Shown here: positions 5,379 through 39,783 of the stretch, piece after piece | Numbering within the stretch: the stretch's first letter is position 1 | How the letters are laid out: every line of letters starts with the position of its first letter | Source: Bremerella sp. TYQ1 | Lineage (GTDB): Bacteria > Planctomycetota > Planctomycetia > Pirellulales > Pirellulaceae | Reading direction: 5' to 3' | Assembly: GCF_020150455.1 (NCBI RefSeq) | Contig: NZ_CP083740.1 | Span: 6,593,001 to 6,657,000, forward strand | Length of the DNA: 64,000 bases | Notes under the pieces: model-generated | Told to the model about the DNA's origin: nothing | Seen by the model: only the letters and a program-made list of their open reading frames with translations | Databases searched by the model: none | Program-made: the position numbers and the translations under genes

Positions 5379-5417
5379 GGTTTTATAAAGGAAAAGGGAT
5401 CGGTGAAAAGTTGCCCG

Positions 5418-6752: not shown

Positions 6753-6756
6753 AAGC

Positions 6757-11493: not shown

Positions 11494-13218
<1,725 letters not shown>

Positions 13219-13277
13219 GAAGTCGTCTCGTTGTCCGTCAGGTTTTGAAAAGGAAAAGGGAAGAGCGAGCAGGGCCG

Positions 13278-21403: not shown

Positions 21404-21413
21404 CTTAGAACGC

Positions 21414-21497: not shown

Positions 21498-23336
21498 TTA
21501 ACGAGCATCTTCCGGAACGACTAAGGCTTCCGCTGGCATGTCGTCGAGCGATGGTCCGAGTTCAATGTATTCCGGAGTCATCAGTTCTTCGCCGATGCGA
21601 AGATCTTCAAAGAACATCGTGTCGTAGCCGACGGCTAGTTGAGGCATGCAGTTGCAGCAGAGACGAGTAATTTCGATGTGCTGGTCTTGCAGCAGCGTCC
21701 CCTGCGCTCGGGATAGATTAACGAGCGACAAGTTGTATGTCGCAAGCGATTGAGCCAACTGCCGCTCAGCTTCCGCGAGACGCACCTGAGCCGAAAGCAG
21801 GTTGTCCAGGTACAACGCGGCCGACGGATCGTTTCCGGCCATGACCTCCCAGCGTTTTCTCAGTGCGACAACTTCTGCCTGGCTGGCTTGCATGGCCAAC
21901 TGCTTCGATTGCAGTTCGGAGTACGACGTTTGCACTTCTCGAACGGCTACTTCTACCTCCAGCATCAGCGTTTCGATGGTGGCACGCAGCTGACTTTGCA
22001 GTTGGCGTACTTCGATCTCGCGGCGTCGCTTGCGTGCCGAGGCGGTACGATTGCCGAGCGGGTACTCAAGTACCAAACCAGCGAAGTAAGATGGTTCGCC
22101 GACAGAAAACTGATCGACCCACGCCTGGCCGATGTCGTTGCTGCCACGGAGGCCTGAAACATATGTCTCCATGACAACGTTTAAGTAGGGCATCAATTCA
22201 TTGACGGCCATGTCCAAGCGACGGGCAGCCGCTTGGATTTGAACGCGGGCCTGGGCAATTTCGGGGCGATACTGCAGAGCCAGCATTTTCGATTCGTCGA
22301 TGTTAACTGGTTCGTACGTCGTTTGTGGATGAGCGACCGGAAGCATTTCCAGACCGACTGCGTCTTCCAGGTAAGGATCGTTCACCAGGCTGACAATGCG
22401 GGATTCGGCATTGCGGACGGCTGTTTGCGTACGAGCCAGGTCCGATCGTCGCTGAGCGGCAGCACTTTGAGCACGCAGCAACTGGGCGCGACCGACGTCC
22501 AAGTTCTGACGTTGTTCCAAGATGTTGTATAAGTCTTCGCTTTCACGAACGAGCTTGACGCGCTGAAGTAAGTGAGCCCGTTCGACATATAACGCCCAGT
22601 AACCGCGAGAGACTTCCAGGATTTGCGATTGAACCTGACGGGAAAACTCGTGGTTGGCCGCCGCGGTATCGAGCATGGCCAAGTAGACTTGTGAGGTGTT
22701 GTAGTAAAGCCCGCGACCTCGCATCAGAGGATGGTTGTATCGCATGGTAAGACGCGACGTGCCTTGGTCTTCGGGGATAAAGAACACCGAGTTGTTGTTC
22801 GTCAGTCCGAAGTCTTGCAGGATTTCAAACTCTCCACCGAGGCGGTTTAGTCGACGGAATCCCAGGTTCGTATCAAAGTCCGATTCACGAAAGCGAGTGG
22901 GACCGCCGGTCGTGAGCGTGTTGCCCACGGGGTCACTCGTTTTACGATAGCCAGTTTCACCGAAAACTCGCCAGTCGAAAACGCCATCTTCTTCTGTGAT
23001 GGTTTGTTCGCGGATCAATGGAAGATCGCTGAACGCTCGGATTTGATGTGATGATTGAAGGGCACCCGCGACGAGCGTTTCAACAGTAACATCAACAGGA
23101 ACACTATGGGCCGCCAATTGCGACTCGAGTTCAGGCTGCCACCAAGGCGTTTGCGTCGCCTCGGGAACGGTGCCCCCCATGTTGTCGAAATTGCTAGGCA
23201 TCGACAACGGGTGGTTTAAGTCTTGTTGAATTGGAGGAAGTCGCGCGATGTCTTGTGCGATTCCGAGAGTGGGCAGTATGCCCAAGACGAGCGTTCCTGT
23301 AAGAACGCGCAGAGTCGGCGCTAAGCTTGCGATCAT
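21498..23336 (-). CDS. TolC-family outer-membrane efflux protein
   Basis: 612 residues from the ATG at 23336. A signal peptide (MIASLAPTLRVLTGTLVLGILPTLGIAQD) is followed by a Pro-rich segment and an OEP/TolC core: helices such as 'LEVSRGYWALYVERAHLLQRVKLV' (residues 255-300), repeated amphipathic helices with Gln/Arg/Glu-rich heptads, and the barrel segments 'FAGLVLEYPLGNRTASARKRRREIEVRQ'. The C-terminus has about 60 extra residues with CCNC. The frame is open upstream to a TTG at 23525, and that extension encodes a second hydrophobic N-terminus, so the true start is uncertain; I choose the ATG, which has GGTGGAA upstream. It is next to the giant repeat protein, and it could form the outer-membrane channel for it together with the HlyD-like adaptors on the other side. 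Confidence 0.82.
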   Translation of the reverse strand: MIASLAPTLRVLTGTLVLGILPTLGIAQDIARLPPIQQDLNHPLSMPSNFDNMGGTVPEATQTPWWQPELESQLAAHSVPVDVTVETLVAGALQSSHQIRAFSDLPLIREQTITEEDGVFDWRVFGETGYRKTSDPVGNTLTTGGPTRFRESDFDTNLGFRRLNRLGGEFEILQDFGLTNNNSVFFIPEDQGTSRLTMRYNHPLMRGRGLYYNTSQVYLAMLDTAAANHEFSRQVQSQILEVSRGYWALYVERAHLLQRVKLVRESEDLYNILEQRQNLDVGRAQLLRAQSAAAQRRSDLARTQTAVRNAESRIVSLVNDPYLEDAVGLEMLPVAHPQTTYEPVNIDESKMLALQYRPEIAQARVQIQAAARRLDMAVNELMPYLNVVMETYVSGLRGSNDIGQAWVDQFSVGEPSYFAGLVLEYPLGNRTASARKRRREIEVRQLQSQLRATIETLMLEVEVAVREVQTSYSELQSKQLAMQASQAEVVALRKRWEVMAGNDPSAALYLDNLLSAQVRLAEAERQLAQSLATYNLSLVNLSRAQGTLLQDQHIEITRLCCNCMPQLAVGYDTMFFEDLRIGEELMTPEYIELGPSLDDMPAEALVVPEDAR

Positions 23337-23548
23337 GGCTCGGTTCCACCAATTGCCATTTGCGTTGTTTGGCCCATTGCTCCATGCATCAGGATCTACC
23401 GTGATCCTGTGGGCGTCGCAAGTTTTATCGACGTGCCAAGAACGTGCCAGCACGTTCCTTTGAGGGAGGGGCGCAACCGAAATAACTAGTCCGACTGCGA
23501 CGAGCGTTATCAAGCGACGTCGCAATCGCTAAAGGTGGAACGGTTCTT

Positions 23549-26500
23549 CTACTTCCCTGCTGGTAGGAACGAAGAGAGTCGCAATTCGTATCCTGCCAGG
23601 ATTGACGGGTCTGCAAGTTGTAACGGTCGGGCATCAGCTTCCAACATCGAAGAAAGCGAATTGGAAGGACTACCTAGGTAGGCAGAGCCTGGAGAGAGCA
23701 TTGGGCGGAAGTAGGTCGCCATCTGACGTGCTGGTTCATAGTAACGTCGTAGATTGCCATCCATCGATTCGTTGAGCCCATATTGAGCCGAGGTCGACCA
23801 GACTCGCGAGTCTCGGACTTCCCGCTCGAATTCAACGCCTTGCATGTTGGCGAAGTAATTTCCGCCGGAATCGGTGACGACAGACTTCCAACCAACCAGT
23901 CCTCCGGACGGATCACGGAATTCCAGATGAAGCGTTGACCCAGGAGTTGCGATGCCTGAGATAAACGGTTCTATACGGAGGTCTGGCGTACGACGAATCG
24001 GATCGTCCAGGATATCGTGGAACGGCCCCAGGAAATCGTTGAAGGCATCTTTCCCATAGAACGTCACTAAGTCAGTGTCGGAGTCAAAGTTGTTTTCCGG
24101 CGTCGGATCAGGCCCCAGCGTTCCGTCGTCACGAACGTTCACAAAGTTAGTGAAGTCCATGATCGTTGGGTCGGAAACTATCGTTTTAACCTGAGCAGTG
24201 ATCGTCAACGATACCTGCCCGCCTTGTCCGGCGAGATTGCCCAGTTGCCATTCAATCGTGCTTGTGGATGGATCGTAGACACCTCCGTTGGAAGCGGAGA
24301 TAAAGTCGAGGACGTCCGATGGGAACGTATCGGTCACGACAACTCCGCTGGCCGTTTGATTCCCAACGTTGGTGACGAGGATGTCGTAGACGATCGTATC
24401 GCCGGGGAAGGCGCGGATAATGCCGTCGTCCTTGGTGACAACCAAGTCTGGGGTAACACTTTCGTCAATTGGCGTCGTTACATCGTCATGGTTATCTTCC
24501 GGCGTCGGGTCGATATCGTCATGTGTGACATCGACGTTATTCATCACGAACTCAACGGGAGGGGCCGGATCGCTAAGCTGAACCATCATCTCGATATCAA
24601 TCGACTCGCCGATGGCCATGCTTGGAATGACGAACGTGACCGTTCCAAGCGTTGGGTCGTAGTTATCGAAGAACGGACTGGTGCTGCTCACGAACGTCAC
24701 GCCAGGAGGGAGCGTATCGACGACGATCACGTTGGTTGCCACATCGGCGAAGGGGCCTTGCTTGTTGGTGACGGTCAGATCGTATTCGTAGATGTCGCCT
24801 GGGAAGAGAACTACGGCTGGCGTGCTCTTTTCCACCGTCAGGTCAGGGCCGACGATGGTTGCTTCGGCATCGTCCATGGTTTCATCAGGACGCTGCTCAG
24901 GGTTCTCGCCCGGCTGGCTATCCCAGTCGAGCGTTGCCGTATTGGTAAACGTCGTTCCATAATCGGCAATGTCGCTGGTTACTTCCGCATCGACTGTAAT
25001 CGTAATCGATTCGCCGAGTGCCAGTTGATCGATCATCAGCGAGATCATGTTGCCCGATGAGCTGTCCATGACAATCGTTCCCATCGGAGAAACCACCATC
25101 AAAGTGCCGGGGACGATGGTAACCTCAGGCGGCAACACGTCTTGGATGATCAAATCGTAGGCATCCGTCGTGCTCATCGCATCGTGTGTAATGACAAACT
25201 CGTAAGTAACGATGTCGCCCAAGTGAGGTGTCGTGTCGCTGATAGTCTTTTCGATGTCGAGGAACGGTTCGACAATCGTCACGTCGAAGTTGGCATTGTC
25301 CGAAAGCTCGTTGTCAGAAGTCGCCTCGACGCTGTTTGGCTTCGTTTGATTATTCGCGTTGGCTGGATCGTTTACCACGACTGCTTCGTATGTGATGGTG
25401 AAGCTGTTGTTCATTGGGTTGTTGTCACCGGCGTTGGTGACATCGCCCAAATCAATGGAAAGCGTGCCTCCCATGAAGCTGGCCATCGGTGCGGAAGCGA
25501 ATGTGAACTGACTGCCGGCGTTTACTTGAACAGTGCTCGGATCGACCGTGAAGACGGAGGCAACCAGATCGGTAATGTTCAGATTAGGCGTGAATCCCTC
25601 GAACAGTGTGACCGTCAACTGATAAACGACCGTATCCCCAATTGCGAACTCGGTTCCGTTGAGGGTTGTCTTCTCGATGGCCAGGGAGCCTTCCACGGTT
25701 TCGCTGACCGAATCGCCGGCGAAGTAGTTGTTGACATCCATGGCATCAGGGGCGCCACTGCCGTCACGCTCGCCGGTCTCTTGGCCGCTGTTTTGATCTC
25801 CTTCCAGTGAAGACCATGTGAGGTCGGCATCGTTGGTCAAAACCTGATTGTGCTCGACCGAATCGGATAGGGTGATGGTGTACTCAAGGGTTATCGATGA
25901 ACCAAGCGGCATGTCGAATTGGCCCATCGTCGCACCATTCAATCGCAGGCTGGTACCGCCACCGAGGATTTCGGCAGTGGGCGGCGTGGCAAAGCCAGTC
26001 GCGATGACATTAACCGAGGTGATCAGCGTGTCAGAAGGAGCGATGTCGGTAAACACAACATCAAATGCATCGGCGGTACTGCCGGCCGCATGCTGAATGA
26101 CGACTTGATACGTAATCGTGTCGCCAGCGTCAGGCGGATCTTGAGACTGACTAGTGATTTGCTTCTCAATCTCTAGGTCTGGTTCGACCAGTTCGACCAA
26201 TGCGGTATCCGAATCCGTGAACGTGTCGAGCGTTACCGTTGCGGTATTGACCAGAGGCGTTCCCGTCGCTTGATTATCGACAACGTTCAGGACCTGAGCG
26301 TCAACTTCAATGACAATCTGGTTCAGCGTTGGATCACCCATCCCAGGTAATTGAACCTGATCGACATCGAACGTAATCGTCAGTTGATCATCGTAGCCAT
26401 CCGTGCCGGTATCGGAGGTTGTCACCGTGGTTCCGTTCAGCGAAATGTTACCGCCGACCATTGTTACGCGGACATCACTTGCCCCTGAAATCAAAGCAAG

Positions 26501-29500
26501 ATATTCAGGAAGCAGGTCGGTTAAGATAACATCGTCTTCATAGAGACCTGCTGGTAGGTCCAGCGTGATTTGATAGGTTACGACTTCACCAATTGCTAAA
26601 TCGACGATGTCGGGGTTGTATTGATCTGACGTCGTGCTGGCTTCGCTGGTGCGAATGACAACTTTATCGATGCCGACTTCTTCCTGTGGCGTATCTACTT
26701 CATTGTCGTCGGTGTCGAGGCCAGGCCGACCGCCATCTCCGGGATTGCTGTCGTAATTAACCGAGGCAGTATTGATAACCGTGTCGCCAGTCGGATCTAC
26801 GTTCGCATTCAACTGGGCTTCGAAGGTGATGGTCACCGTGTCGCCGATATCTAGAGAGTCGACAGCAACCGCTATGGTGGTGTCACCGGACGTGTTTCCC
26901 GTGACTACCGTTCCGGTACTTGTCATAACGCTGCCGACAACTAGGTCTAGCTTGTCGTTTAAGCCCATCCCTTCCAGCAGTTGATCGTCGATGACGATGT
27001 CGAACGCGGTAGCGGTGCTATTGGAAGCGTGGCTGACGACCAACGTATACGTAACGATATCGCCCACGTTGGCTGTCGAGATATCGGAAGTCTTTTCAAT
27101 CTCCAGTACCGGTTCCACGATGTCGACATCGGTCATGTCACTGTCTGTGAAGCCGGGATAGGTGACCGTTCCGGTATTGGTTATCGTCGTGCCGTCGACG
27201 TTTGTTGGATCGTCCGGAACGATAGCCACAATCTCGAACACCAATAGATTGTCGTTCGTGCCGACAGCGGATGGGTTCACTAGATCGGTAAACGTGAACG
27301 TAACAGTGTCGTCGAGCATGTCGGTGTTCGAGTCGCTCGTCGTGACAGCCAAGTTCGAGAACGTTATGTCGGAATCAGAAAGATCGGCTCGATAGGTTTG
27401 GCTGACCAGTTGCAGCTTGCCCGGCATGGTTGGAAGGAAATCGGTGACGACGAAATCGTTTGGATAGGTTCCTTCTGGAAGCGTAACCGTCAAGTAGAAC
27501 GTCGCCGTTTCTCCTACGACTAAGTCATTGCCAATTGTTTCAGGCACAGACGTGGCAACGAGTGTCTTCTCAATCGTGGGCGTGGCCGTCCCAGTCGTGA
27601 CGGAGTCGTCGTCGAAGTAGTTGTTTAGACCATTCGCATCAGGGCGACTACTGCCATCGCGCTCCCCTTGTGGATCGCCTGGGTTCACGTCGCCGTCGAC
27701 GCTCGACCAGTCGATAGATGCGTCGTTGGTCAGATCTTCACCTGGGGTCAGCGAGTCTTGTATTGTGACTTCGTAAACAAGCGTAATGCTTGCCCCCAAT
27801 GGCAAGTCGAAGACGCCAGAGCCTGCCGTATCCGAAAGAACGATCGAAGCTCCTCCAGGTACAATCTCTGCGATTGGGATTGTCGTTGTGCCAAAGCCTG
27901 TCCCCGTTACCGACACGACACTGGTAATCAGCGTATCCCCAGGAGCGAAATCCGCGAAAGCAACCTCAAACGCATCGCTCGTGCTGCTGCCGTCGTGGCT
28001 GATGACAACCGTATATTCGATCGTGTCGCCGGCATCGAGATTGGCCTGGCTTTGTCCCGAAATTTGTTTCTCGACATTGAGTTCTGGTTCAATCAGTTCG
28101 ATGTCGACCGAACCGGTTGTTAGCGTCGTCGTAGACGTGTCGGGATCGGTATACTCAAGCTCTCCGGTGTTGGTCAGCGTAATGCCGTCTTGATTGGCGA
28201 CAATGTTAAGTACCCGGGCAGTGACTCGCACTACAAATGAATTGTTGTCGACGTCGTTGTCGGCTGCGGTTACCGTATTTCCGAAATCAAGTTCCAGATC
28301 GGCGCCACTGCCCGAGGGACTATTGACCATCGGCGTCGGGAGCGTGCCGCCATAGTCTTCGGTAAGAAGGCCGTTCGACAACGCGGCTGCGGTGATGATC
28401 TCGTAGCTGACATATTCGAGACCTGGTGGCAAGTTATCGGTAAGGAACAAGTCAAGCGTGGTCCCTTCCGGAAGGGTTACGAGCAAGTCGTACGTGACGA
28501 TTTCCCCAATGGTGTATTCCGTTTCGTCGACGAACTTTTCGACCGTAGGACTATCGAGTTCTAGCGACGCGGTTGACGTGTCTGCGTAGTCATTTAACGC
28601 ACCATTGGGGCCATCGTCGCCGGTACGTTCACCATTGACTTCGCCAGGATCACTGTCGGTCGCGGGGAGTACCGATCCGGTTGGATTCGGGGCCGTTCCT
28701 TGATCGCCAGGCAGACTGGTATAGGTAATGTCAGCCGTGTTGTCGATGGTCAGATCGACCGCTGTATCGTCGAGAACCGTCGCGGTGATCAGCAGGGAAA
28801 TCGATTGGCCCTCGTCGAGGCGATCGAAAGTCATATCGACAAAGTTGCCGGCGCCGGTGTCCGAGTTGTCCGTGATGATCGTTGCGACCGGAGAAGAAAC
28901 CACTTGGACCGACTGCAGGTCCAATGCTGGATCAAAAATGTCCGACAGGCGGATGTCAAACGCAGTGGTCGATGTCGCGCTGGCAAGGTTTTCGATCGTG
29001 ATCGAATAGGTGACCGTGTCCCCAGCGTCCACTGGTGGAGTAACGACCAATTTCTCGACGTTGACATTCGGTTCAACGACTTGAACGGTTTCGGTATTCG
29101 AGGTGAATGCAAACTCACCATTGTTGCCACCCACCGAAAAGACGTTGTCGAGCTGAGTGTTGGCCTGGTTGCCGCTGACATTATTCACCAAGGCATTGAA
29201 TTCAATCACGATGAATTCAAAATTGGCATCGTTTTCGTTATTGGTAATGGTGCCCAACGAAATGATGGGATCGACGCCAGAGGTGAAGTCCGTTGAACCT
29301 GCTTCCGGCGAAATGAGTGAAGAATCAACAACGAATGACAACGCACCATTCATTAGGTCAAATGTTGCGCTGTCTTCAAAATAGGCGTTGGATGGAGACC
29401 CGAGCGAGCTGGAAAAGAACAGCGCTGGGTCATCGCCGACAAACGCAACCATTGTCGTCCCATCATTCAGGAACGTCATGCCGTCTGGCAGCTGATCTTG

Positions 29501-32500
29501 CAGGAATGCTCCGACGATGGTTTCAGGGACACGAGTGATTAAGCGATAACGAACGATTTCGCCAATGGCGACTTGTTCAATGCCAGCGACTTCACCGGTG
29601 TGCGATTCGGAGGTGGTCGATACAAATTTGACCAACGTGGGAGAATCAAAGAGGAACGTATTAGTTCCAGTGTCGGCGTAGTCGTTCAATGCTCCCCCGG
29701 GACCGTCGGCTCCGGTGCGTTCGACACTGTCAGTATTGAACGTGGAGCGTTGACCAGGATCGCCGTCGAGACTTGTCCACGCGATGTCCGCCTCGTTGGT
29801 AACCGCCTCGCCGGGCGTTAAATTATCGAGCGTTCCGGCAACAGTAATCGTAACGACACGGCCCAGATTCATGTCGATCGTATTCATCGAGATGTCGCCG
29901 CCGATGGCGAACTGAAGCGTACCGCCAGTGATGACAACATCCGCTGTTGTCAGTATCCCTTCTGAATCAACTACGCCGGTAACCATCGGGGCGACGATGC
30001 CGGTCGGAAGAAGATCGGTAAGCGTGACATCGAAAGCATCCGTTTCACTACTGCCGCTATGCTGCAGCGTTATCGTGTATTCCACTGGGTCGCCGGCATC
30101 GCCTGACCCCGGAGGCGCCGTGTTGCCGTTGACGGTCGCTGTCTTGGTTACGTCAAGCTCTGGTTCGATCACCGTTACCGGAGCAGCATCCGCGGTTGTG
30201 GTGATCGGTTGCCCATTCACCGTATATTCCGCTTCGGCTCGATTGACTTCCTGCGAGCCAGATTGGTTTTGCACATCATTCAAGACGACGGCGGTCACCG
30301 AGATGGTAATCGTTTCCGCCACGGAATTGTCCGCGTTGGAATTGGTGACCGTGCCGAAGTCAAACGTAATCACCGTGCCATTATTCGTGACGACTGGAGT
30401 GACCGCAGTAAGATCACCGCCTGGCAGGTCTGTCGACAAATCGCCACTAACGGTGATCGAGTCGACTTGAACGAAAGCCATTTCTGAAAGCAAGTTGAAC
30501 TGATCGGTGACAATTAGGTTCGGCGTCACGCCTTCCGGCAGCGTTACCACGATGTCAAAGTAAACTAGTTCGCCGATAACCGCTTCATCGAAACCGTTCG
30601 TCGCGTTGTCGATCTCGGTGCCCGTCAAGATCTTCTCAACGATCGGTTCTCGGACCATTACGATGGCATCGTCGGTGAACGGCCCATCTACGCCTTCAGT
30701 CCAGTCGACGCCATTGTTGATCCCGGCGAAATTCTCTAGCGTTGCCGTATCGAGCTGTTCCGAACCGACGGGAATATCGGCAGCGGCTTGCAGGTCAAAT
30801 GTGATGACGATGATGTTGGAACCAGAAGCGGCTCCTGTCGGTTGCCCATCGATCACGCCATCCAGCGGATCACCACCCATCAAATCGGCTGGATCGACTA
30901 GGCGAATTCCCTGGCCATTACTGCCGCTGGTAAAAAAGAAATCGGCTTCGGTTCCTGGTGTAATCAAATTTCCAGCCGAGTCCGTGAATGCCAGAACGGT
31001 TCCGTCTCCTGATTGAACTTGAAGATTCAGGCCAGTCGCGTTGGCTGGAATAACAAATCCAGGGGGAAGCGTATCGTTGATGATGAGGTCAAAAGCATCG
31101 TCCGACCCAGTGTTCTCGACGACAATAGCAAACTTGACCAAGTCGCCGGCATCGATCCCGCTTAGGTCACTATCGATCGGGTCGGTGTCGAGATCGGCAG
31201 ATGTGATCGGAGTGGTGAACGCAGGGCCTGCGGTACCAGGAGGCGTGAATGGTACAGGGCCGGTCGTGCCTGGCGTGAACTCTGCCGGAGGGGATGCGGT
31301 GTCGGTGCTGACGACCCCCTTTTTCAGATTCAGCTCAGGACTTTGCGTTTGCACTTGAATCAAGTCGACATCGGTACTTGCACCACTGTTCGTTGAACCT
31401 TCGACCGTTTCGACCAGGTTTGAAAGGAACAGTCCGTCCGCGAATGGAACGTCTTCGACTTGAACAGTGAACAACAAGTCAATCGTCGTCATCTCGGGGG
31501 CAGCAGCCGCGAAGGTTCCGAAGTCGAGAGAGAACGAATTGCTCGTCATCGACTGAGCTAACGTTGGAGTCAGGCCTCCGCCGGTACTGTAGAGATCGAA
31601 GAAGGCTTGAGCATTGGGCCCGTAGGTAATTTGGCCAACCGCTGGAACACCAGTCGTTTGCACCGAATTAACGAACGTCAAGACGGTTGAAGCGTCAAAG
31701 ATCGGCAGCGGCAACGAGTCGGTAATGGTAAGGCTTTGGAACTCTGTCAGCGGAAGTTCATAGCTGATGCGATAGGTGACCTGATCGCCTGGGCTAAGCG
31801 TCGGCGTACCGACGATAGCATTGCCGTTGATTGCGAAGACGGTCTTGTCGACCGAACCTGTGGGTAGCTGCGTCGATGTGCTGCTGTCGTCCGTTTCTGA
31901 TTCGCCCCCGACAATATCGCCAGAGACTTGAACGTTGTTGCCAACGGTATCCCCCTGGTCGACATTGATGCTATCTGGGGGAAGCGTCGGATCGCGGAAG
32001 GTGTCGTCGATGACCGCTCGAAAGACGATCACGCCGGTTGTACCAGGCGAACCACCATCGTTGCCAATCAATGTGCCTGATTGGCCGCGATCAATCAATT
32101 CATTTGAAACCTCGAACGTAACTTCCGTTCCGTAAGGTGTACCTGGTTGAACGACGAATGAGTAGTTCGCGGATTGGAAGTTCGACAATGGCGACGTTGC
32201 GCCAGCATTGCCACTGATTTGCAGCATCGGAACAAACGACGCATCGAACGACTGGCCATCCGACAGTAGATCGCTGAGGACAATGTTCTGGAAATCAAAG
32301 TAGTCCGAGATCTGGAACTCGAGACGATATTCCAAGACGTCCCCTGAAGAAGGACCCGTTGGACCGATGTCGTTGACGTTGGAAACACTCTTTTGAACCG
32401 CGATCGATTTATTGGTCAGCGTCTGATTGCCATCCGAGCCATCATCGACGACCGTCTCTGTGACATCATCGTCTCGTGGGTCAATCGGGTCCCATGTGTA

Positions 32501-33553
32501 TTCGGCAAACGCCGTATTGAGCGTCTCGGTATCATCTCCCGTGATCGGATCGAGGATCGGGTTTCCATCGGCATCGAATTCTGAGACATAAAAATCAAAT
32601 TGCACGGAGATATCAACGGAGCTTGAGGTGCCCACAATACTGTCGTACTCGACCACCAATTCCGAACCATTCAATGGAGTCGTATTGATAGGAGGCTCGG
32701 AGACGATCATTCCCGTTCCTACGCCAGCTCCGCCAAGGGCGACGTTGTTCAGATATACGATTCGGTTGGAGATTGGATCGGTTATGACCAAGTCCGTAAT
32801 CGTTTGGCCATCCGCGATGTCAATGTTGATGACATAGCTGCGCGGGAAATTCGAGCCCGTGGCTGTTTCGTTCTCAGGAGCGATCAACATCTTGTCGATG
32901 CGAATTACTTCAGGGGTCACCGAGTCGGAAACGAAATTGCTAACCGTGTCGTTGGGATTGTCGACGCTAGGATTGTCCAGCGGATCACACCCGTACTGAA
33001 ATCCGCCCCGGACTTCAATTGGCAATGCTTCGCCGACATCGGCGAGCTGATCGATGTTGGCGGTACCATGGATCGTCAATTCAGTCGAGTCAGCTTCATA
33101 AGATCCAAGCGGTAACTGAAGCACAATAAAGCGATCGCCAGGCGTGAGTCCTGAAACGATCACTGGCGTTCCATCGGGATTACGAAGCAATGGATGTTCG
33201 ACGGTGCCACTTGGACCGACGATTTGGTCGAGCACTGGAGTCAGGGCGATGCCTTCGATGTCGAACGTCACCGAGCCTGGGTCAGTACCCAGGCCATCAG
33301 GCGTATCGGTGCCTGCAGCGCCATCGGCTCCATTACGAGGTAGCACCACGTCAATGAAGGGGCCGAACCCGGGACCGGTGCCCGGAGCCAGGTCGAACGT
33401 AATATCAAATTCGACGGTCTCACCAATGAGCGCCTCGTCCGGCAGATCAACGGTGACGTCAGGGACCGCGTTCAGCAACACGCGTCGTTCGAGTCGTTCC
33501 AGGAGAAGTCCGCTTTGTTTTTTCTCAGTAGGACGTTTCAGCATGGGGATCAT
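23549..33553 (-). CDS. Giant LEPR-XLL surface protein with about 18 DUF11-like repeats
   Basis: 3,334 residues, from ATG at 33553 (a second ATG at 33544 is also possible). Residues 16-29 (LLLERLERRVLLNA) match the LEPR-XLL signature, a short N-terminal sorting-like motif of very large planctomycete surface proteins. The rest is a chain of Ig-like domains of the DUF11 type (TIGR01451), each starting with a 'VEK' or 'IEK' strand, followed by 'GD.V.Y.....' and a 'D.LP.G' loop. I count about 18, six pairs of which alternate in two types (see findings). The C-terminal 200 residues are different: RTPDLRIEPFISGIATPGS begins a segment that may be a capping or anchoring domain, with an aromatic-rich 'RRYYEPARQMATYFRPML'. 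It is highly acidic and poor in Cys. It is flanked by a TolC-like gene and a divergent HlyD/M50 operon. Likely extracellular and adhesin-like; transport route unknown. Confidence 0.9.
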   Translation of the reverse strand: MIPMLKRPTEKKQSGLLLERLERRVLLNAVPDVTVDLPDEALIGETVEFDITFDLAPGTGPGFGPFIDVVLPRNGADGAAGTDTPDGLGTDPGSVTFDIEGIALTPVLDQIVGPSGTVEHPLLRNPDGTPVIVSGLTPGDRFIVLQLPLGSYEADSTELTIHGTANIDQLADVGEALPIEVRGGFQYGCDPLDNPSVDNPNDTVSNFVSDSVTPEVIRIDKMLIAPENETATGSNFPRSYVINIDIADGQTITDLVITDPISNRIVYLNNVALGGAGVGTGMIVSEPPINTTPLNGSELVVEYDSIVGTSSSVDISVQFDFYVSEFDADGNPILDPITGDDTETLNTAFAEYTWDPIDPRDDDVTETVVDDGSDGNQTLTNKSIAVQKSVSNVNDIGPTGPSSGDVLEYRLEFQISDYFDFQNIVLSDLLSDGQSFDASFVPMLQISGNAGATSPLSNFQSANYSFVVQPGTPYGTEVTFEVSNELIDRGQSGTLIGNDGGSPGTTGVIVFRAVIDDTFRDPTLPPDSINVDQGDTVGNNVQVSGDIVGGESETDDSSTSTQLPTGSVDKTVFAINGNAIVGTPTLSPGDQVTYRISYELPLTEFQSLTITDSLPLPIFDASTVLTFVNSVQTTGVPAVGQITYGPNAQAFFDLYSTGGGLTPTLAQSMTSNSFSLDFGTFAAAAPEMTTIDLLFTVQVEDVPFADGLFLSNLVETVEGSTNSGASTDVDLIQVQTQSPELNLKKGVVSTDTASPPAEFTPGTTGPVPFTPPGTAGPAFTTPITSADLDTDPIDSDLSGIDAGDLVKFAIVVENTGSDDAFDLIINDTLPPGFVIPANATGLNLQVQSGDGTVLAFTDSAGNLITPGTEADFFFTSGSNGQGIRLVDPADLMGGDPLDGVIDGQPTGAASGSNIIVITFDLQAAADIPVGSEQLDTATLENFAGINNGVDWTEGVDGPFTDDAIVMVREPIVEKILTGTEIDNATNGFDEAVIGELVYFDIVVTLPEGVTPNLIVTDQFNLLSEMAFVQVDSITVSGDLSTDLPGGDLTAVTPVVTNNGTVITFDFGTVTNSNADNSVAETITISVTAVVLNDVQNQSGSQEVNRAEAEYTVNGQPITTTADAAPVTVIEPELDVTKTATVNGNTAPPGSGDAGDPVEYTITLQHSGSSETDAFDVTLTDLLPTGIVAPMVTGVVDSEGILTTADVVITGGTLQFAIGGDISMNTIDMNLGRVVTITVAGTLDNLTPGEAVTNEADIAWTSLDGDPGQRSTFNTDSVERTGADGPGGALNDYADTGTNTFLFDSPTLVKFVSTTSESHTGEVAGIEQVAIGEIVRYRLITRVPETIVGAFLQDQLPDGMTFLNDGTTMVAFVGDDPALFFSSSLGSPSNAYFEDSATFDLMNGALSFVVDSSLISPEAGSTDFTSGVDPIISLGTITNNENDANFEFIVIEFNALVNNVSGNQANTQLDNVFSVGGNNGEFAFTSNTETVQVVEPNVNVEKLVVTPPVDAGDTVTYSITIENLASATSTTAFDIRLSDIFDPALDLQSVQVVSSPVATIITDNSDTGAGNFVDMTFDRLDEGQSISLLITATVLDDTAVDLTIDNTADITYTSLPGDQGTAPNPTGSVLPATDSDPGEVNGERTGDDGPNGALNDYADTSTASLELDSPTVEKFVDETEYTIGEIVTYDLLVTLPEGTTLDLFLTDNLPPGLEYVSYEIITAAALSNGLLTEDYGGTLPTPMVNSPSGSGADLELDFGNTVTAADNDVDNNSFVVRVTARVLNIVANQDGITLTNTGELEYTDPDTSTTTLTTGSVDIELIEPELNVEKQISGQSQANLDAGDTIEYTVVISHDGSSTSDAFEVAFADFAPGDTLITSVVSVTGTGFGTTTIPIAEIVPGGASIVLSDTAGSGVFDLPLGASITLVYEVTIQDSLTPGEDLTNDASIDWSSVDGDVNPGDPQGERDGSSRPDANGLNNYFDDDSVTTGTATPTIEKTLVATSVPETIGNDLVVGETATFYLTVTLPEGTYPNDFVVTDFLPTMPGKLQLVSQTYRADLSDSDITFSNLAVTTSDSNTDMLDDTVTFTFTDLVNPSAVGTNDNLLVFEIVAIVPDDPTNVDGTTITNTGTVTYPGFTDSDMTDVDIVEPVLEIEKTSDISTANVGDIVTYTLVVSHASNSTATAFDIVIDDQLLEGMGLNDKLDLVVGSVMTSTGTVVTGNTSGDTTIAVAVDSLDIGDTVTITFEAQLNANVDPTGDTVINTASVNYDSNPGDGGRPGLDTDDNEVDTPQEEVGIDKVVIRTSEASTTSDQYNPDIVDLAIGEVVTYQITLDLPAGLYEDDVILTDLLPEYLALISGASDVRVTMVGGNISLNGTTVTTSDTGTDGYDDQLTITFDVDQVQLPGMGDPTLNQIVIEVDAQVLNVVDNQATGTPLVNTATVTLDTFTDSDTALVELVEPDLEIEKQITSQSQDPPDAGDTITYQVVIQHAAGSTADAFDVVFTDIAPSDTLITSVNVIATGFATPPTAEILGGGTSLRLNGATMGQFDMPLGSSITLEYTITLSDSVEHNQVLTNDADLTWSSLEGDQNSGQETGERDGSGAPDAMDVNNYFAGDSVSETVEGSLAIEKTTLNGTEFAIGDTVVYQLTVTLFEGFTPNLNITDLVASVFTVDPSTVQVNAGSQFTFASAPMASFMGGTLSIDLGDVTNAGDNNPMNNSFTITYEAVVVNDPANANNQTKPNSVEATSDNELSDNANFDVTIVEPFLDIEKTISDTTPHLGDIVTYEFVITHDAMSTTDAYDLIIQDVLPPEVTIVPGTLMVVSPMGTIVMDSSSGNMISLMIDQLALGESITITVDAEVTSDIADYGTTFTNTATLDWDSQPGENPEQRPDETMDDAEATIVGPDLTVEKSTPAVVLFPGDIYEYDLTVTNKQGPFADVATNVIVVDTLPPGVTFVSSTSPFFDNYDPTLGTVTFVIPSMAIGESIDIEMMVQLSDPAPPVEFVMNNVDVTHDDIDPTPEDNHDDVTTPIDESVTPDLVVTKDDGIIRAFPGDTIVYDILVTNVGNQTASGVVVTDTFPSDVLDFISASNGGVYDPSTSTIEWQLGNLAGQGGQVSLTITAQVKTIVSDPTIMDFTNFVNVRDDGTLGPDPTPENNFDSDTDLVTFYGKDAFNDFLGPFHDILDDPIRRTPDLRIEPFISGIATPGSTLHLEFRDPSGGLVGWKSVVTDSGGNYFANMQGVEFEREVRDSRVWSTSAQYGLNESMDGNLRRYYEPARQMATYFRPMLSPGSAYLGSPSNSLSSMLEADARPLQLADPSILAGYELRLSSFLPAGK

Positions 33554-33848: not shown

Positions 33849-34718
33849 ATGCAAGTGGAAAGAAGACACAAAACACTGGTAATTACCGCTTCGATTGCCG
33901 TTCTGTGCTTTTTGTTGCCCTGTTTGTCCCAGGCAGAGGAAGCAACGATTCAGAGCTTCACGGAGCCTGTCGAGACGGTCCGTGTTGCCTTTTCGCAACC
34001 TGGGAAGTTGCAGAAGCTCAACGTTGCGGAAGGCGAGCAAGTAGAAGCGGGAAAGATTTTGGCAACGCTCGATGAAGGGGCGTTGGGGGTCATGTTTGAG
34101 ATTGCGGAGGTCCGTTCGGCGGATCAATCTCCGGTGCATGCCGCCCAAGCCGAAGTCGACTCACTCACACAAAGAGTTACTGATCTGAAGGAACTCGTCG
34201 ACTCAGGCGGTTCCTCTACGGCAGAAGTTCGTCGTGTATCGACCGATTTAGAAATCGCCGCGGCCAAGCTTCAATCGGCCCAGCGAGAGCAAGAGATCAA
34301 CGCGTTAGAAGTTCGCCGTCTTGCTGCCGAACGCCAGAAGTACGAACTGCCGGCTCCGATTGATGGCTACGTCGTCGAAATATTGAAGCATCCCGGCGAG
34401 TTCATCAGCGCGAACGATCCCGAGGTATTGCAGCTTGTCAAACTCAATCCGCTGAGGGTTCGATTTCACGTCCCTGTCGAGATGGTCGAGGCTTTGAAGA
34501 CAGGGCAATCGGTTGAAGTCACGTTGCCGCAGTCGCGTCAGCAAGCGGAAGGGACGATTCAGCGCGTCTCGCATGTGATCGATCCCGAAAGCGCCACCGT
34601 TCTGGTGGAAGTCAACATTCCCAATCCGGAATCGAAATATCGTAGCGGTGCATTATGCCTGTGGAACGGAATGCCGCGGAACTCCAACAAAACATCCAAC
34701 GTGGGGACAGCCCAATGA
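33849..34718 (+). CDS. HlyD-like periplasmic adaptor (membrane-fusion protein)
   Basis: 289 residues, ATG at 33849. It has a signal peptide (hydrophobic at residues 9-27, ending LSQAEEA). The order is typical of a membrane-fusion protein: a lipoyl/biotinyl-like half-motif (residues 42-72: 'VRVAFSQPGKLQKLNVAEGEQVEAGKILATLD'), a helical hairpin rich in Gln/Glu/Arg (residues 95-155), the second lipoyl half ('YELPAPIDGYVVEILKHPGEFI') and a beta-barrel ('PLRVRFHVPVEMVEALKTGQSVEVTLPQ'). It is short for the family and lacks an N-terminal membrane helix other than the signal. It starts the operon, and its stop overlaps the next start in an ATGA. It probably bridges an inner-membrane component to the TolC-like channel. 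Confidence 0.87.
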   Translation: MQVERRHKTLVITASIAVLCFLLPCLSQAEEATIQSFTEPVETVRVAFSQPGKLQKLNVAEGEQVEAGKILATLDEGALGVMFEIAEVRSADQSPVHAAQAEVDSLTQRVTDLKELVDSGGSSTAEVRRVSTDLEIAAAKLQSAQREQEINALEVRRLAAERQKYELPAPIDGYVVEILKHPGEFISANDPEVLQLVKLNPLRVRFHVPVEMVEALKTGQSVEVTLPQSRQQAEGTIQRVSHVIDPESATVLVEVNIPNPESKYRSGALCLWNGMPRNSNKTSNVGTAQ

Positions 34719-34975
34719 ATGCGGAACCAATCAAGTTCGTTGTTAAGTACGAAACGACCTCGGCTCTTTACGCCGGACAGACCATTGTGAATGCTGTAGG
34801 GGATGAGGTGATTGTTGATTTCTCCTCAGGCCCGATTCCTGGACAAGGAGAGCAAGTACTGCCGATTCATACTCGCATCGCATTGTCGAGCGAATCGGCA
34901 AGCCGACTGGCACGACTTCTCCTGCAAGCGACAAACCGTCAGTCTGACGATGAAGCACGCTTGCCGGGCAGTTAA
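34715..34975 (+). CDS. Small DUF3467-like protein
   Basis: 86 residues from the ATG at 34715, which overlaps the previous stop as ATGA. It has a short beta-rich pattern: 'FVVKYETTSALYAGQTIVNAVGDEVIVDFSSG' then 'RIALSSESASRLARLLLQAT'. This resembles DUF3467, a small soluble protein family found next to various systems, but without a database search this is a weak assignment. The translational coupling with the adaptor, and the 58-bp gap to the next HlyD gene, indicate a role in the same system, perhaps an accessory or chaperone protein. An upstream in-frame ATG (34655) lies within the preceding gene and is not chosen. Confidence 0.6.
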   Translation: MNAEPIKFVVKYETTSALYAGQTIVNAVGDEVIVDFSSGPIPGQGEQVLPIHTRIALSSESASRLARLLLQATNRQSDDEARLPGS

Positions 34976-35033
34976 GGAGTCACGGATGCAAGAGGCATGT
35001 CTTTCTTTCAGGAACTCTTAAGAGCCCTAATGC

Positions 35034-36797
35034 ATGTTGGCTGAAATCAACTCATCCACGAATCGCCCAGCGGTGAACGATCTCACGCAGCAATATCTAG
35101 TTGTTTTGCAGCAAGATACGGAATGCGACGTGATCCAGCGCCAACTAGCTGTATTAACTCAGCAGCGAATCAACGCCCGAAGCGTGCAATGGATTTCACT
35201 ACCGGCGGAAGGCAATAACGAGGAAAAGAACGAAGCTATTTCGCTCGATGAAGAACTGCTTGCCTGTTTGAACCTGGCTCGAGAGAAACAAGCTGCCGCG
35301 ATTCAGGCAAGCCAGCGAGTTCCTAAAGCATTCGATATCGCGATTCATGTTCCGAAGCACGGCACGCTCGTAAGCCGCATTATTGCGAACGAACGCACGT
35401 TGCCATCGTTTGTGGCATTGCTGCAATTGGCGGCCGGCTATTTCGTGATGGCGGAAAAGAGGCAGTCGCAATTGCCCGCTCCGGAAGTGCAGACAAGCTC
35501 GCGGCTCTTATCAGCGGTTAGCAAAGGAACTTCGCTGGCAGAAGTGGGGCGAACATGGTCTCTCGATCTGTCGACCGTCGCTGGAGCAAAAATCGCTTTG
35601 CTCTGCCTGAAAAAGGGTTGGAGGAACAAGCTTGAACTAGTTGCGATGTCTTCCCGAGACATCCCTGCCGGACAAGGAGAGGTGACTCAAACGGCGTGTC
35701 AAATGGCTCGTCAGGCGATGATTGCTTCCGGCGAAGCAGATGGCATTGTCGGTAATCACGGACATTGCCACGCCCAGTCGGCCGATCGATTGGCGCTGCA
35801 ATTAGGCGTGCATCAGGCCGTCGCTTACGCTTTGGTCGATGCACACGGCGAAGCTCAAGGGGCGGTCATCCTCGCAGGCGACACACTGCTTCCGAAAAAA
35901 CTTGAGGAAGCACAACGACTGATTGCTGCGACTTCGCCGGTATTGTTACTCAATCAAAAAGCTCTTCCGGCAAAGCAGAGAAACAAGACGTCCAGTACCG
36001 TCAAGCGAACGGCATGGATCGCCGGAGCTGTGCTACTTTTGGCAGGTCTTATGGCATTGCCGATTCCGTACTACCTAAGATGCGAAACCACTCTCGAACC
36101 GGTAACGCGTCGTTTCATCGGAGCTCCCTTTACCGGGGTTCTTTCTCAGGCTCATGCCGAATCTGGCGACTTGATTGAAGCAGGGCAATTGCTCGCGAAT
36201 CTGGATGATCAACCATTGAAGATCAAACGGTCGCAAATCGCCGTGGAACTGGCTCGTGTAACAAAACAGCGGGAAGTTCACCTCGCGCAGGGCGAAATCG
36301 CAAAGTCTCAAATCGACGAGCTCCGCCGCAAAGAATTGAATGCAGAACTCCAATTGATCGATCAGCAACTCAATCAGGCCGAGATTCGTTCGCCGATTTC
36401 AGGAGTCGTTCTTAGTAACGACTTGAACGATGTCGTTGATGCTCCTGTCGATCTGGGACAAAACCTATTTGAAATTGCCCCGCTCGACTCGCTCCGGGCA
36501 CGGATCCTCGTTCCGGATGAAGATGCCGATTCCATCGAAGTCGGTCGGGTGGTTCATGTTTGGATCTTGGGTAATTCTGGACCGGCACTCGAAGGTGAGC
36601 TTTCTCGCATTTCACCCATCGCGGAAGTTCAGGAAGGCAAAAACGCGATTACAGCAGAGGTGATACTTTCCGATCCCGAAAAGCTGCTTCGACCGGGGAT
36701 GAAGGGAAGGGCGTCGATCGATGTGGGGAAGAAAACGGTGGGATGGATTGTGTTTCATCGCTTGTGGAATCAATGGCGAATCTATTCACCATGGTGA
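35034..36797 (+). CDS. HlyD-like adaptor with long cytoplasmic GAF-like domain
   Basis: 587 residues. The N-terminal 320 residues are soluble and have no signal peptide. Residues 165-305 ('LLSAVSKGTSLAEVGRTWSLDL' to 'AVAYALVDAHGEAQGAVILAGD') resemble a GAF-like sensor fold. A single transmembrane helix lies near residues 326-346 (WIAGAVLLLAGLMALPIPYYL), and is followed by a periplasmic adaptor part: lipoyl-half motifs ('FTGVLSQAHAESGDLIEAGQLLANL', residues 360-395; 'AEIRSPISGVVLS'), a coiled-coil hairpin, and a beta-barrel. The C-terminus ends in an aromatic segment (VFHRLWNQWRIYSPW). The arrangement is of a cytoplasm-facing sensor coupled to an adaptor, unusual compared with HlyD alone. It ends 12 bp upstream of the M50 fusion gene. 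Confidence 0.8.
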   Translation: MLAEINSSTNRPAVNDLTQQYLVVLQQDTECDVIQRQLAVLTQQRINARSVQWISLPAEGNNEEKNEAISLDEELLACLNLAREKQAAAIQASQRVPKAFDIAIHVPKHGTLVSRIIANERTLPSFVALLQLAAGYFVMAEKRQSQLPAPEVQTSSRLLSAVSKGTSLAEVGRTWSLDLSTVAGAKIALLCLKKGWRNKLELVAMSSRDIPAGQGEVTQTACQMARQAMIASGEADGIVGNHGHCHAQSADRLALQLGVHQAVAYALVDAHGEAQGAVILAGDTLLPKKLEEAQRLIAATSPVLLLNQKALPAKQRNKTSSTVKRTAWIAGAVLLLAGLMALPIPYYLRCETTLEPVTRRFIGAPFTGVLSQAHAESGDLIEAGQLLANLDDQPLKIKRSQIAVELARVTKQREVHLAQGEIAKSQIDELRRKELNAELQLIDQQLNQAEIRSPISGVVLSNDLNDVVDAPVDLGQNLFEIAPLDSLRARILVPDEDADSIEVGRVVHVWILGNSGPALEGELSRISPIAEVQEGKNAITAEVILSDPEKLLRPGMKGRASIDVGKKTVGWIVFHRLWNQWRIYSPW

Positions 36798-36809
36798 GAT
36801 GAAAACACA

Positions 36810-38945
36810 ATGAATCCACTACTGCAATTGCGGCCTCAACTCCGCTCCGAAATCCGTTTCTCAATCGAGTCGTATGGTTCGACGCCTTGCTGCGTTTTAG
36901 AAGACCCGATCAGTGAGAACTTCTGGCGAATCGGCATCCCTGAATTTCGTTTTATCTCTCAGCTGGATGGGATTCGATCCATTCCCGAGGCCCTGGCTGC
37001 CGCGAATCGGGACGCGGACGAGACGCCAGTATCCCCATCCGATGCCGAGAAAATACTGCACTGGCTGGTGCGTGAAGATTTGTTGGCCAATGCTCGAAGT
37101 GGTAGTCCGACGCAGCCCAAAGGCTCGCTCGCAGAACGAACCGGCAGCTTGATCTTTCTGCGTTGGCCGCTCGGTAATCCGCAACCGTTGTTGGAAAAGC
37201 TTTACCCCTGGCTTGGCTTTGTAACCGGGCCAGGCTTCGCGTTGATTTGGGCCGCCGTTGTCTTAGCGGCGTTGTATCTTGTAGTCGGCAACTGGAACGA
37301 GTTTCGTGATTCATCGGTGAGCGTCATCTCGCCTGATCAATGGTGGCATTTTGTTCTCATCTGGTGGGGGCTGAAAGCGGTTCACGAATTGTTCCACGGA
37401 CTGACGTGCCTTCGCTATGGTGGGCAAGTGCGAGAAGCGGGGATTTTATTCATTCTGTTCGCACCCCTGGGGGCGTATGTCGATGTAACCTCCAGCTGGC
37501 GATTTGGCTCGAAGTGGGAACGGATTCATGTCATCGTGGCGGGCATTTATTCCGAGTTCCTTGTTGCCGCTTTGGCGATCATCGTCTGGGCGAACACCGA
37601 CGACATAGTCGTGAAGCAAATTTGTTTACAAACGGCCTTGCTCGCGACGATTGCTACCGTATTGTTCAACAGCAATCCGCTGATTCGCTTCGATGGCTAT
37701 TACCTATTGTCGGATTGGTTGGAAATCCCCAATCTTTACCAGCGAGGGCAGTTGGCACTGCGGCGGTTAGTCGGACGCATCTTCTTCGGGGCGTCGGCGA
37801 CGGAAGAACATACCTCAGGACGTTGGCAAACGTTCATCCTCGGCTATGGAGTTGCCGCTTGGATTTGGAAGGTTCTTCTGTGTGCGAGTATCTTGGTCGC
37901 ATGTGCTTCGCTACTGCATGGAGCGGGGCTGGTGCTTGCCATTTTGGCGACCATCGCCTGGCTGGTCCTGCCGCTGTGTCGTGGCCTCATGTCGATCGCT
38001 CAAGTCTGCCGGACTCAACCAGCAAAAGCGGTTCGTGCGATCCTCGTTGCTACGTTATTGGGTGGTGCCGCCTATTTCCTGCTCAGCGTGCTGATCGTGC
38101 CGCAGTATGTCATTGTTCCCGGGGTAATACGGCCGACGAAAATGAGTATCGTCCGCTCAAACGTCGCCGGTCAGGTCATCGACGTTCAAGTGAAGCCAGG
38201 GCAATCTGTGCAAGAGGGCGACTTGCTGGTCCGTCTGGAAAGCCCTGAACTCGACCTGCGTGTCCTCCAAGCACAAAACGAATTGAAACGCATTGAACAG
38301 CGACGACGACAACTCAATCGAGAGGATCGCATCGCCGAAGAGCTCGCCGAAGTCGAAGTCGCACGGCACCAACAGCAGCAGTTGGATATCTTGTTAAATC
38401 AACAACAAAGCTTAGAGGTTCATGCACCGCATGACGGTATCGTGACAGATTTCGATTTGTCCCACTTGAGCGAACAGTATATCGACCGCGGAACTCCGTT
38501 GGTCAACATTGCCGAAGTTGCACAACTTGAATTCTGGTTCTCCGGACGACAGAATCAAATCGATTTGCTCCGCCGCTATCTCCGTGACAAGTCGACACGA
38601 AGGGAACTGCACGTCGAGATGTTTGTCGATCAACATGTCCCAGTCGGTTTGAATGTTGAGAAGCTCACGCTCAACGAATCGGCAACACGCGACTTGGAAG
38701 AAGATGCATTGTCCGCTCTTTCAGGAGGCAGCATCGCCGTCAGCGCACGTCAGCGAGCTAGCGGTCGTACTTTCTACGAAACGGTCGATTCTCGTATTTC
38801 TGGCAAAATGCCTCTCGATGTCAACGAATCCCTGGTGCCTGGATCGAAAGGGACGCTGCGTATCACGTTGCAGCGGCGCACTGTGTTGCAATGGCTTAGT
38901 CCTTGGCTTGAAGAGAAGTGGCTGCGAACACGTGATCAACTGTAA
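36810..38945 (+). CDS. M50 (site-2-type) metalloprotease fused to a HlyD-like adaptor
   Basis: 711 residues. An N-terminal soluble domain (residues 1-100) may be PqqD-like. About six transmembrane helices follow. The zinc motif HELFH is at residues 192-196, and the second M50 motif FDGYYLLSD starts near residue 294, with Asp 295 as the expected third zinc ligand. The last transmembrane helix (residues about 415-435) leads into a HlyD-like adaptor: lipoyl half 'VKPGQSVQEGDLLVRLESPE' near 458, a coiled-coil hairpin (residues 490-530), then 'EVHAPHDGIVTDFDL'. It could cleave a membrane or lipid-anchored substrate and at the same time act as an adaptor to the TolC-like channel. It has no ATPase domain, so the energy source is unknown. 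Related proteins are annotated elsewhere as putative peptide zinc metalloproteases without known function. Confidence 0.88.
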   Translation: MNPLLQLRPQLRSEIRFSIESYGSTPCCVLEDPISENFWRIGIPEFRFISQLDGIRSIPEALAAANRDADETPVSPSDAEKILHWLVREDLLANARSGSPTQPKGSLAERTGSLIFLRWPLGNPQPLLEKLYPWLGFVTGPGFALIWAAVVLAALYLVVGNWNEFRDSSVSVISPDQWWHFVLIWWGLKAVHELFHGLTCLRYGGQVREAGILFILFAPLGAYVDVTSSWRFGSKWERIHVIVAGIYSEFLVAALAIIVWANTDDIVVKQICLQTALLATIATVLFNSNPLIRFDGYYLLSDWLEIPNLYQRGQLALRRLVGRIFFGASATEEHTSGRWQTFILGYGVAAWIWKVLLCASILVACASLLHGAGLVLAILATIAWLVLPLCRGLMSIAQVCRTQPAKAVRAILVATLLGGAAYFLLSVLIVPQYVIVPGVIRPTKMSIVRSNVAGQVIDVQVKPGQSVQEGDLLVRLESPELDLRVLQAQNELKRIEQRRRQLNREDRIAEELAEVEVARHQQQQLDILLNQQQSLEVHAPHDGIVTDFDLSHLSEQYIDRGTPLVNIAEVAQLEFWFSGRQNQIDLLRRYLRDKSTRRELHVEMFVDQHVPVGLNVEKLTLNESATRDLEEDALSALSGGSIAVSARQRASGRTFYETVDSRISGKMPLDVNESLVPGSKGTLRITLQRRTVLQWLSPWLEEKWLRTRDQL

Positions 38946-39748: not shown

Positions 39749-39783
39749 TGGGTATTTTTCGGACAATCACTTCAGGTCAATAA

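Follow-up and report, generated by a model that had tools for sequence, protein, structure and literature searches.

How might a protein of 3,334 residues that begins without a signal-peptide-like hydrophobic stretch reach the surface of a planctomycete cell? The question is raised by a locus of Bremerella sp. TYQ1 (assembly GCF_020150455.1, contig NZ_CP083740.1), where the genes for a TolC-like outer-membrane channel (OEP) and a giant repeat protein lie divergent from four genes encoding two HlyD-family adaptors, a small DUF3467-like protein and a fusion of an M50 metalloprotease with a HlyD part (M50-HlyD; Table 1). The window, i.e. the whole stretch of 64,000 nucleotides that was analysed, spans positions 6,593,001 to 6,657,000 of a single-contig genome of 6.66 Mb (G000:C1:6593001-6657000 in our working labels, which are also used for other genomes, contigs and loci). 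The original prediction, made from the letters of the window, had read these genes as an export or surface-anchoring system, and all genes that it named were found in their places and on their strands. We find that the M50-HlyD family is statistically tied to giants with a LEPR-type N-terminus, and a truncated SecA ATPase is tied to it as well in many lineages. Sequence comparison and models make it reasonably probable that the unit is a SecA/M50/HlyD/TolC exporter, probably also with a processing function, that is dedicated to the giant; export itself is what we infer.

Table 1. Features of the six-gene unit (window positions)
Feature	Position	Strand	Support or remark
TolC-like outer-membrane channel (OEP)	21498..23525	-	PF02321 1.8e-22, two stretches; Stieleria orthologue in the same place
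Giant, 3,334 aa, DUF11 / isopeptide-forming D2 repeats, presumed export substrate	23549..33553	-	
C-terminal region of the giant, type ct1, without hydrophobic helix	23552..24121	-	Profile from last 190 residues; hydropathy
LEPR-type motif LERRVLLNA of the giant, presumed export signal	33467..33493	-	Motif scan; Stieleria giant with same motif
HlyD-family periplasmic adaptor, signal-peptide-like N-terminal stretch	33849..34718	+	PF13437 1.5e-19; TIGR01730 above cut-off
DUF3467-like small protein	34715..34975	+	PF11950 2.8e-4, below cut-off
HlyD-family adaptor, ~320-residue N-terminal cytoplasmic domain (GAF-like in relatives) and transmembrane helix	35034..36797	+	
M50-HlyD fusion: PqqD/RRE-like N-terminus, M50 core, AcrA-like adaptor	36810..38945	+	
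PqqD/RRE-like N-terminal domain, residues about 16-88	36855..37073	+	Three strands and three helices in model
HExxH zinc-site motif HELFH, residues 192-196	37383..37397	+	H192, E193, H196 invariant in 35/35 aligned
Second M50 motif NSNPLIRFDGYY, residues 287-298	37668..37703	+	N287, N289, D295, G296, Y297 invariant in 35/35
AcrA/MexA/MacA-like adaptor part, residues 427-711	38088..38942	+	

The recurrence of the gene order in relatives, which the original prediction had called for, was found in Stieleria tagensis TO1_6, where OEP and a 3,943-aa giant on the minus strand are followed divergently by HlyD, DUF3467-like, HlyD with N-terminal domain and M50-HlyD genes; the two M50 proteins share 44% identity. 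None of the unit components turned up in twenty 20-kb control regions taken from seven genomes of the family. Because the order recurs in S. tagensis and the control regions are empty, the six genes are more than chance neighbours and, judged by gene order, form a conserved unit. A DeoR-type regulator gene (38969-39766, minus strand) comes next after M50-HlyD and was treated as lying outside.

Relatives of the window M50-HlyD are otherwise 41-47% identical at best in the protein-database search, and a scan of genome contigs with this single sequence found none, whereas an alignment-based scan succeeded. All 60 genomes of the family matched M50-HlyD at E of at most 1e-3, G022 (best 2.9e-6) possibly through the adaptor domain only. 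From more than 150 matches listed, 44 loci in 25 genomes were picked with preference for high scores and long contigs, so that percentages among them are not unbiased; G028_15 was dropped, its M50 gene running past the edge of the fetched stretch. In a tree of 43 M50 proteins 12 rows form clade B with full support, and the remainder, including the window copy, was taken as clade A. We kept G006_5623 in clade A though the tree places it loosely with B, and assigned G010_C52b, which is truncated and outside the tree, to B by judgement.

Among the 31 clade-A loci, counted like the other locus sets with component profiles that were iterated on the very loci in question (SecA and OEP being checked independently with Pfam), at least two further adaptors were present at 29, OEP within 20 kb at 25, a SecA-like gene within 8 kb at 15, a ct1 or ct2 giant tail at 14 and a DUF3467-like gene at 2. 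An open reading frame (ORF) of at least 600 aa with LEPR motif lay within 20 kb at 16 loci, which bears out the predicted neighbourhood of M50-HlyD and giants. The OEP count is far above background, since seven complete genomes (~54 Mb) gave only 196 OEP domain matches, often two per gene. Clade B, a common second class of M50-HlyD (13 loci), has adaptors at 12, DUF3467-like genes at 8, SecA-like genes at 4 and giant tails at 0. In a wider alignment scan, of which the best 80 loci out of 576 were retained, one or more additional adaptors were found at 74 loci and at least two at 58, OEP at 24 and a DUF3467-like gene at 13; its tree excluded three rows in which no HExxH was found. By record titles M50-HlyD occurs in eight phyla, namely Planctomycetota and, besides it, Verrucomicrobiota, Pseudomonadota, Nitrospirota, Thermodesulfobacteriota, Fibrobacterota, Bacteroidota and Kiritimatiellota, and the idea of a planctomycete-specific machine has to be given up.

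The association extends from neighbourhoods to whole genomes. In 199 genomes of the phylum (E cut-offs: M50-HlyD 1e-20, LEPR-XLL 0.01, PF07595 0.01, SecA 1e-30) we counted 46 carriers of M50-HlyD, 15 of LEPR-XLL, 16 of PF07595 and 39 with at least two SecA matches. As the original prediction had expected, 14 of the 15 LEPR-XLL genomes carry M50-HlyD compared to 46 of 199 overall (both 14, LEPR-XLL only 1, M50 only 32, neither 152; p 2.7e-9, related genomes being treated as independent here and in the values that follow). A second SecA is likewise tied to M50-HlyD (33/6/13/147 in the same order, p 4e-21; 30/2/13/147, p 1e-22, after removal of seven genomes with split SecA matches). The window genome itself was scored LEPR-XLL-negative, since LERRVLLNA receives no score from the 24-position model. 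For PF07595 the table reads 7/9/39/144 (p 0.05). M50-HlyD as a reader of the whole PF07595 class was considered as well; with this weak association (7 of 16 carriers) the proposal was kept for the LEPR-XLL class.

The ATPase that recurs next to M50-HlyD is of the SecA type. Many clade-A loci encode a SecA-like protein of ~640 aa between OEP and HlyD, and in the wider set SecA (~650 aa) lies within 8 kb on the M50 strand at 34 of 80 loci. All 35 SecA-M50 pairs share one strand; in 27 of them SecA is directly downstream of M50-HlyD (gap at most 331 bp), and 10 of these 27 genes overlap it as longest ORFs. The SecA-linked form spans seven phyla, with examples in Psychromonas, Oceanospirillales, Methylomonas sp. 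LW13, Roseomonas, Thermodesulfovibrionia and a Fibrobacter metagenome-assembled genome (MAG). At the Methylomonas locus (L227) GAF-HlyD, M50-HlyD, SecA-like and HlyD genes follow one another, and a LEPR-type giant is encoded close by. In the Pirellulaceae MAG L169 two SecA-like genes (4758-6875 and 12515-14572, plus strand) flank the same M50-HlyD. All 23 family genomes searched have, besides the housekeeping SecA, at least one other open frame, 587-830 codons long, that matches SecA_DEAD strongly; that of the window genome (694 codons) belongs to a paralogous clade-B locus near 1.99 Mb, which unites the extra SecA, two adaptors, M50-HlyD and a DUF3467-like gene.

The short SecA proteins retain a motor core: SecA_DEAD, the preprotein cross-linking domain (PP_bind) and the second P-loop domain were found in 6 of 6 scanned, and 54 ORFs of at least 560 aa contain GEGKT in 52 and GRGTD in 51 cases. 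Alignments with full SecA models, which have 787-814 positions, break off near position 600, and PF07516, the SecA scaffold/wing family, was not among the domain matches of the short proteins scanned. Two of them were compared with the SecA and SecA2 models, all of which stayed below their curated cut-offs. Since the SecA-like gene recurs next to M50-HlyD and tracks it genome-wide, the ATPase beside the M50 genes of relatives is a truncated SecA and not an ABC protein. The original notion that the M50 protease takes the place of an ATPase thus fails for many relatives, while its observation that no ABC ATPase is nearby proved right (0 by Pfam in the seven proteins scanned in and around the unit).

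The giant carries repeats of the DUF11 type (Pfam, 2.6e-69), which in NCBIfam count as isopeptide-forming fimbrial D2 domains (TIGR04226, 4.4e-79). Its N-terminus reaches a maximum Kyte-Doolittle hydropathy (KD) of 0.74, compared to 2.63 close to the N-terminus of the HlyD adaptor at 33849..34718 and 1.96 for OEP behind an internal Met. Signal-peptide-like N-terminal hydrophobicity was absent in all 17 LEPR-type giants checked (KD at most 1.2). The LEPR motif occurs in 16 of 20 ORFs of at least 1500 aa in the 31 clade-A neighbourhoods; neither of the 2 such ORFs of the control regions and none of 7940 shuffled N-termini has it. LEPR-type N-termini also stand on large or contig-cut ORFs next to M50-HlyD in Verrucomicrobiota, Kiritimatiellota and Gammaproteobacteria. 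The Stieleria giant has LERRVLLNAVPD close to its N-terminus and shares the C-terminal type ct1 with the window giant, whose profile also matches the giants G055_6794, G055_4161 and G006_4681 and a 732-aa ORF in G038_C184. Despite its motif the window giant escapes NF012209 (LEPR-XLL; no match in the window genome at E 0.1) and receives no score from PF07595 either. Studholme et al. reportedly defined the planctomycete cell-surface motif (PF07595) in 2004 as a proposed export signal. PMC8567305 quotes the published consensus, and its core ExLExRxLL agrees with the sequence ERLERRVLLNA of the window giant; the part of this source available to us puts the motif forward as an export signal and names no machine. 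A second type of giant, ct2, is represented at clade-A loci such as G013_C34, G055_5357, G036_6075 and G012_C7; its C-terminus consists of a hydrophobic segment and then a W...DPL-type tail. A sensor kinase of a single family, HKN, usually comes after or alongside these giants, and HKN genes lie within 20 kb at 14 of the 31 clade-A loci.

M50-HlyD combines a PqqD/RRE-like N-terminus (RRE, RiPP recognition element; RiPP, ribosomally synthesised and post-translationally modified peptide) with an RseP-like core and an AcrA-like adaptor. Pfam detects HlyD_D23 (3.1e-12) and Peptidase_M50 (2e-8), and HExxH together with the Asp of the second motif in an M50 fold places it in the M50 (site-2) protease family. 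Of 27 relatives 9 match PF05402 (PqqD), and a family profile of the N-terminal domain finds PqqD 3g2b (4.5e-4) and TfuB1 6jx3 (2.6e-3). The OEP gene probably starts at an internal ATG at ~23336 (residue 64 of the full-frame translation), where the signal-peptide-like stretch begins. The DUF3467-like gene overlaps the HlyD stop as ATGA (start 34715), and among the relatives found outside Stieleria its product is closest to proteins of L203 (50% identical) and L180 (47%), whose genomes have the housekeeping SecA only. A role of this protein as SecB-like chaperone, guessed from its strand/helix pattern, is not claimed, no SecB being among the fold-search matches listed. The second adaptor (35034..36797) has PF13437 at residues 451-555 (6.9e-21) and a hydropathy of KD 2.24 near residue 327; a GAF domain was found in 10 of 15 aligned relatives (best 1.3e-13).

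We propose that the LEPR N-terminus of the giant would act as export signal, because the protein has no signal-peptide-like stretch, and that the RRE-like domain of M50-HlyD would read it in the cytoplasm. A SecA-type motor, in the window genome either the extra SecA of the paralogous locus or the housekeeping SecA, might then drive the unfolded chain across the inner membrane, while the M50 domain could cut a leader or membrane segment and/or gate the entry to a periplasmic conduit. This conduit would be formed by the three HlyD-type proteins docked on the TolC-like channel, and an isopeptide-stabilised repeat fibre would finish at the cell surface. The GAF adaptor and the DUF3467-like protein may be accessory or regulatory parts, GAF being the putative sensor. 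More tentatively, and with somewhat less conviction than we have in a dedicated exporter, we suggest an undescribed secretion class in which a truncated SecA feeds giants with an N-terminal LEPR signal into an RRE-M50-HlyD gate of the inner membrane and on into a HlyD/TolC conduit, possibly bypassing SecYEG.

Several observations weigh against a dedicated exporter of this kind. By Pfam neither PqqD in the window M50-HlyD taken alone nor GAF in the window's own adaptor copy was detected, so that the predicted 'GAF-like' character holds for relatives and was not recovered in the copy for which it was proposed; the DUF3467 score of the window protein is 21.3 bits (2.8e-4) against a curated gathering score of 25. 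The window locus has no SecA-like gene, and the same holds for 16 of the 31 loci of clade A; in the phylum set a second SecA is missing from 13 M50-positive genomes, and in 7 of 21 other M50-HlyD genomes SecA is limited to the housekeeping copy. With no SecA at the locus, and with the nearest DUF3467-like relatives found outside Stieleria (L203, L180) in two of those seven genomes, the window unit appears to be a SecA-less subtype; its genome does contain one extra SecA. G248, one of the 15 LEPR-XLL genomes, has no M50-HlyD, and the wider planctomycete motif PF07595 is present in 9 genomes that lack M50-HlyD. Counted by family code the associations are weaker, with LEPR-XLL in 10 of 11 families together with M50-HlyD (p 1e-5) and 17/2/7/54 for the second SecA (p 5e-10). 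Clade B mostly stands without TolC or giants (OEP at 3 of 13 loci, a LEPR-motif ORF nearby at 2); the original prediction had named frequent M50-HlyD operons without giant or TolC gene as an argument against itself, and through clade B this argument holds in part.

The giant could also surface by another route, with the M50-HlyD complex only processing, anchoring or releasing it and the adaptors serving as a scaffold; it would then be an adhesin under protease control, similar in spirit to the Lap system. The intact M50 motifs, the HKN genes near clade-A loci and the hydrophobic segment of ct2 giants, which an intramembrane protease could cut, agree with this, but three adaptor-type proteins, a TolC-like channel and the SecA-like motor of relatives suit transport better, and the window giant has no hydrophobic segment at its C-terminus (KD 0.71). 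We regard this explanation as unlikely, although it is the strongest competitor of the exporter. The PqqD/RRE-like domain could instead indicate an operon that matures and exports a small RiPP-like peptide, the giant being a mere neighbour, and the nearest NCBIfam models of M50-HlyD are indeed daptide and epipeptide metalloproteases. Both models nevertheless remain below cut-off (best 189 of 300 bits; for the daptide protease NF041824, cut-off 300 bits, the window protein scores 170 and relatives 134-189), the association with LEPR giants goes beyond neighbourhoods, and no RiPP-type enzyme was spotted by eye, in a non-systematic look, among the listed neighbourhood ORFs, which makes a peptide product hardly credible.

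An ABC transporter for type I secretion or efflux, encoded elsewhere and borrowing these adaptors, is improbable as well. Many ABC ATPase-like matches exist in the genome, the best to the type I model TIGR03375 with 285 bits, but none reaches its cut-off of 693 in this one model tried, so that a transporter elsewhere, which the original prediction had named as an argument against itself, was not recovered with it; TIGR03375 is a strict model, because 14 control genomes also had none above cut-off. A simple regular expression, which misses some cases such as one ABC-looking ORF in G011_2636, picked out ABC-type ORFs around 3 of the 31 clade-A loci, with up to 40 kb covered, and in 2 of the 20 control regions of 20 kb, and the neighbour conserved across phyla is SecA. 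That the six genes are unrelated neighbours was already disfavoured and is very improbable: clade B M50-HlyD can occur without OEP and giant, but the six-gene order is kept in Stieleria at 44% protein identity and the genome-wide co-occurrence stands against it.

Other features of the genome were noted alongside. At its OEP end the unit borders on a tRNA-Ser gene (window 21320-21404, plus strand), and in G043, the only other genome of the genus in the sample, M50-HlyD matches do not exceed the clade-B level (best 1.2e-61, 29%); together this hints at an island recently gained or lost. At the first clade-B locus (G000:C1:1972000-2007000, L007-L008) several large ORFs have LE.R-type N-termini, one with cadherin repeats, and two of the five PF07595 matches of the window genome lie within ~10 kb of its M50 gene. 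A second clade-B M50-HlyD triad (G000:C1:3336000-3370000, L009-L010) stands beside a cluster that by eye resembles type VI secretion (ClpV-, ImpB/C- and ImpG-like N-termini); nearby is a protein of 2,861 aa that has DUF5649 repeats and begins in LEPR-like fashion. In the window a T2SSE/MshEN ATPase of type II secretion or type IV pili (14715-16442, minus strand) lies ~5 kb beyond OEP, and a protein of 1,671 aa (43959-48974, minus strand), in which DUF7133, laminin-G-like, HEAT and cytochrome c domains were found, is apparently unrelated to the unit.

To our knowledge no described secretion system joins a SecA-type ATPase, an M50 membrane protease and a HlyD/TolC conduit. A literature search, with bioRxiv and most subscription journals outside its coverage, found no paper on this gene set, and the accessible part of a large review of TolC systems has 'SecA' in two passages, both on SecDF/SecYEG (PMC8277102). 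On the strength of comparative genomics and models alone, the system is a candidate for a new kind of secretion system. If true, it would be the machine that reads the cell-surface motif proposed in 2004, or at least its LEPR-XLL branch, and would give planctomycetes, verrucomicrobia and many proteobacteria a way of bringing giant proteins to the surface.

Compared with known systems, the unit shares HlyD-family adaptors, a TolC-family channel and a very large repeat-rich substrate with type I secretion, but it contains no ABC transporter (nor does the genome above the TIGR03375 cut-off), the conserved ATPase partner of relatives is SecA-like and the recurrent signal-like motif is N-terminal. 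In contrast to tripartite efflux pumps such as AcrA/TolC, the inner-membrane part is an M50 protease fusion and not an RND, MFS or ABC transporter. The accessory Sec systems of Gram-positive bacteria resemble it in linking a second SecA (SecA2) to large surface proteins. SecA2 systems use SecY or SecY2, whereas the short SecA of relatives is far below the SecA2 cut-offs and is accompanied by HlyD, TolC and M50. With the daptide and YydH-LiaK intramembrane metalloproteases M50-HlyD has the M50 core and an apparently PqqD-like N-terminus in common, but it falls below their cut-off, is fused to an adaptor and is tied to giants and SecA. The system lacks testable defining features of type I secretion, tripartite efflux and SecA2 systems, and it probably works like a TolC conduit.

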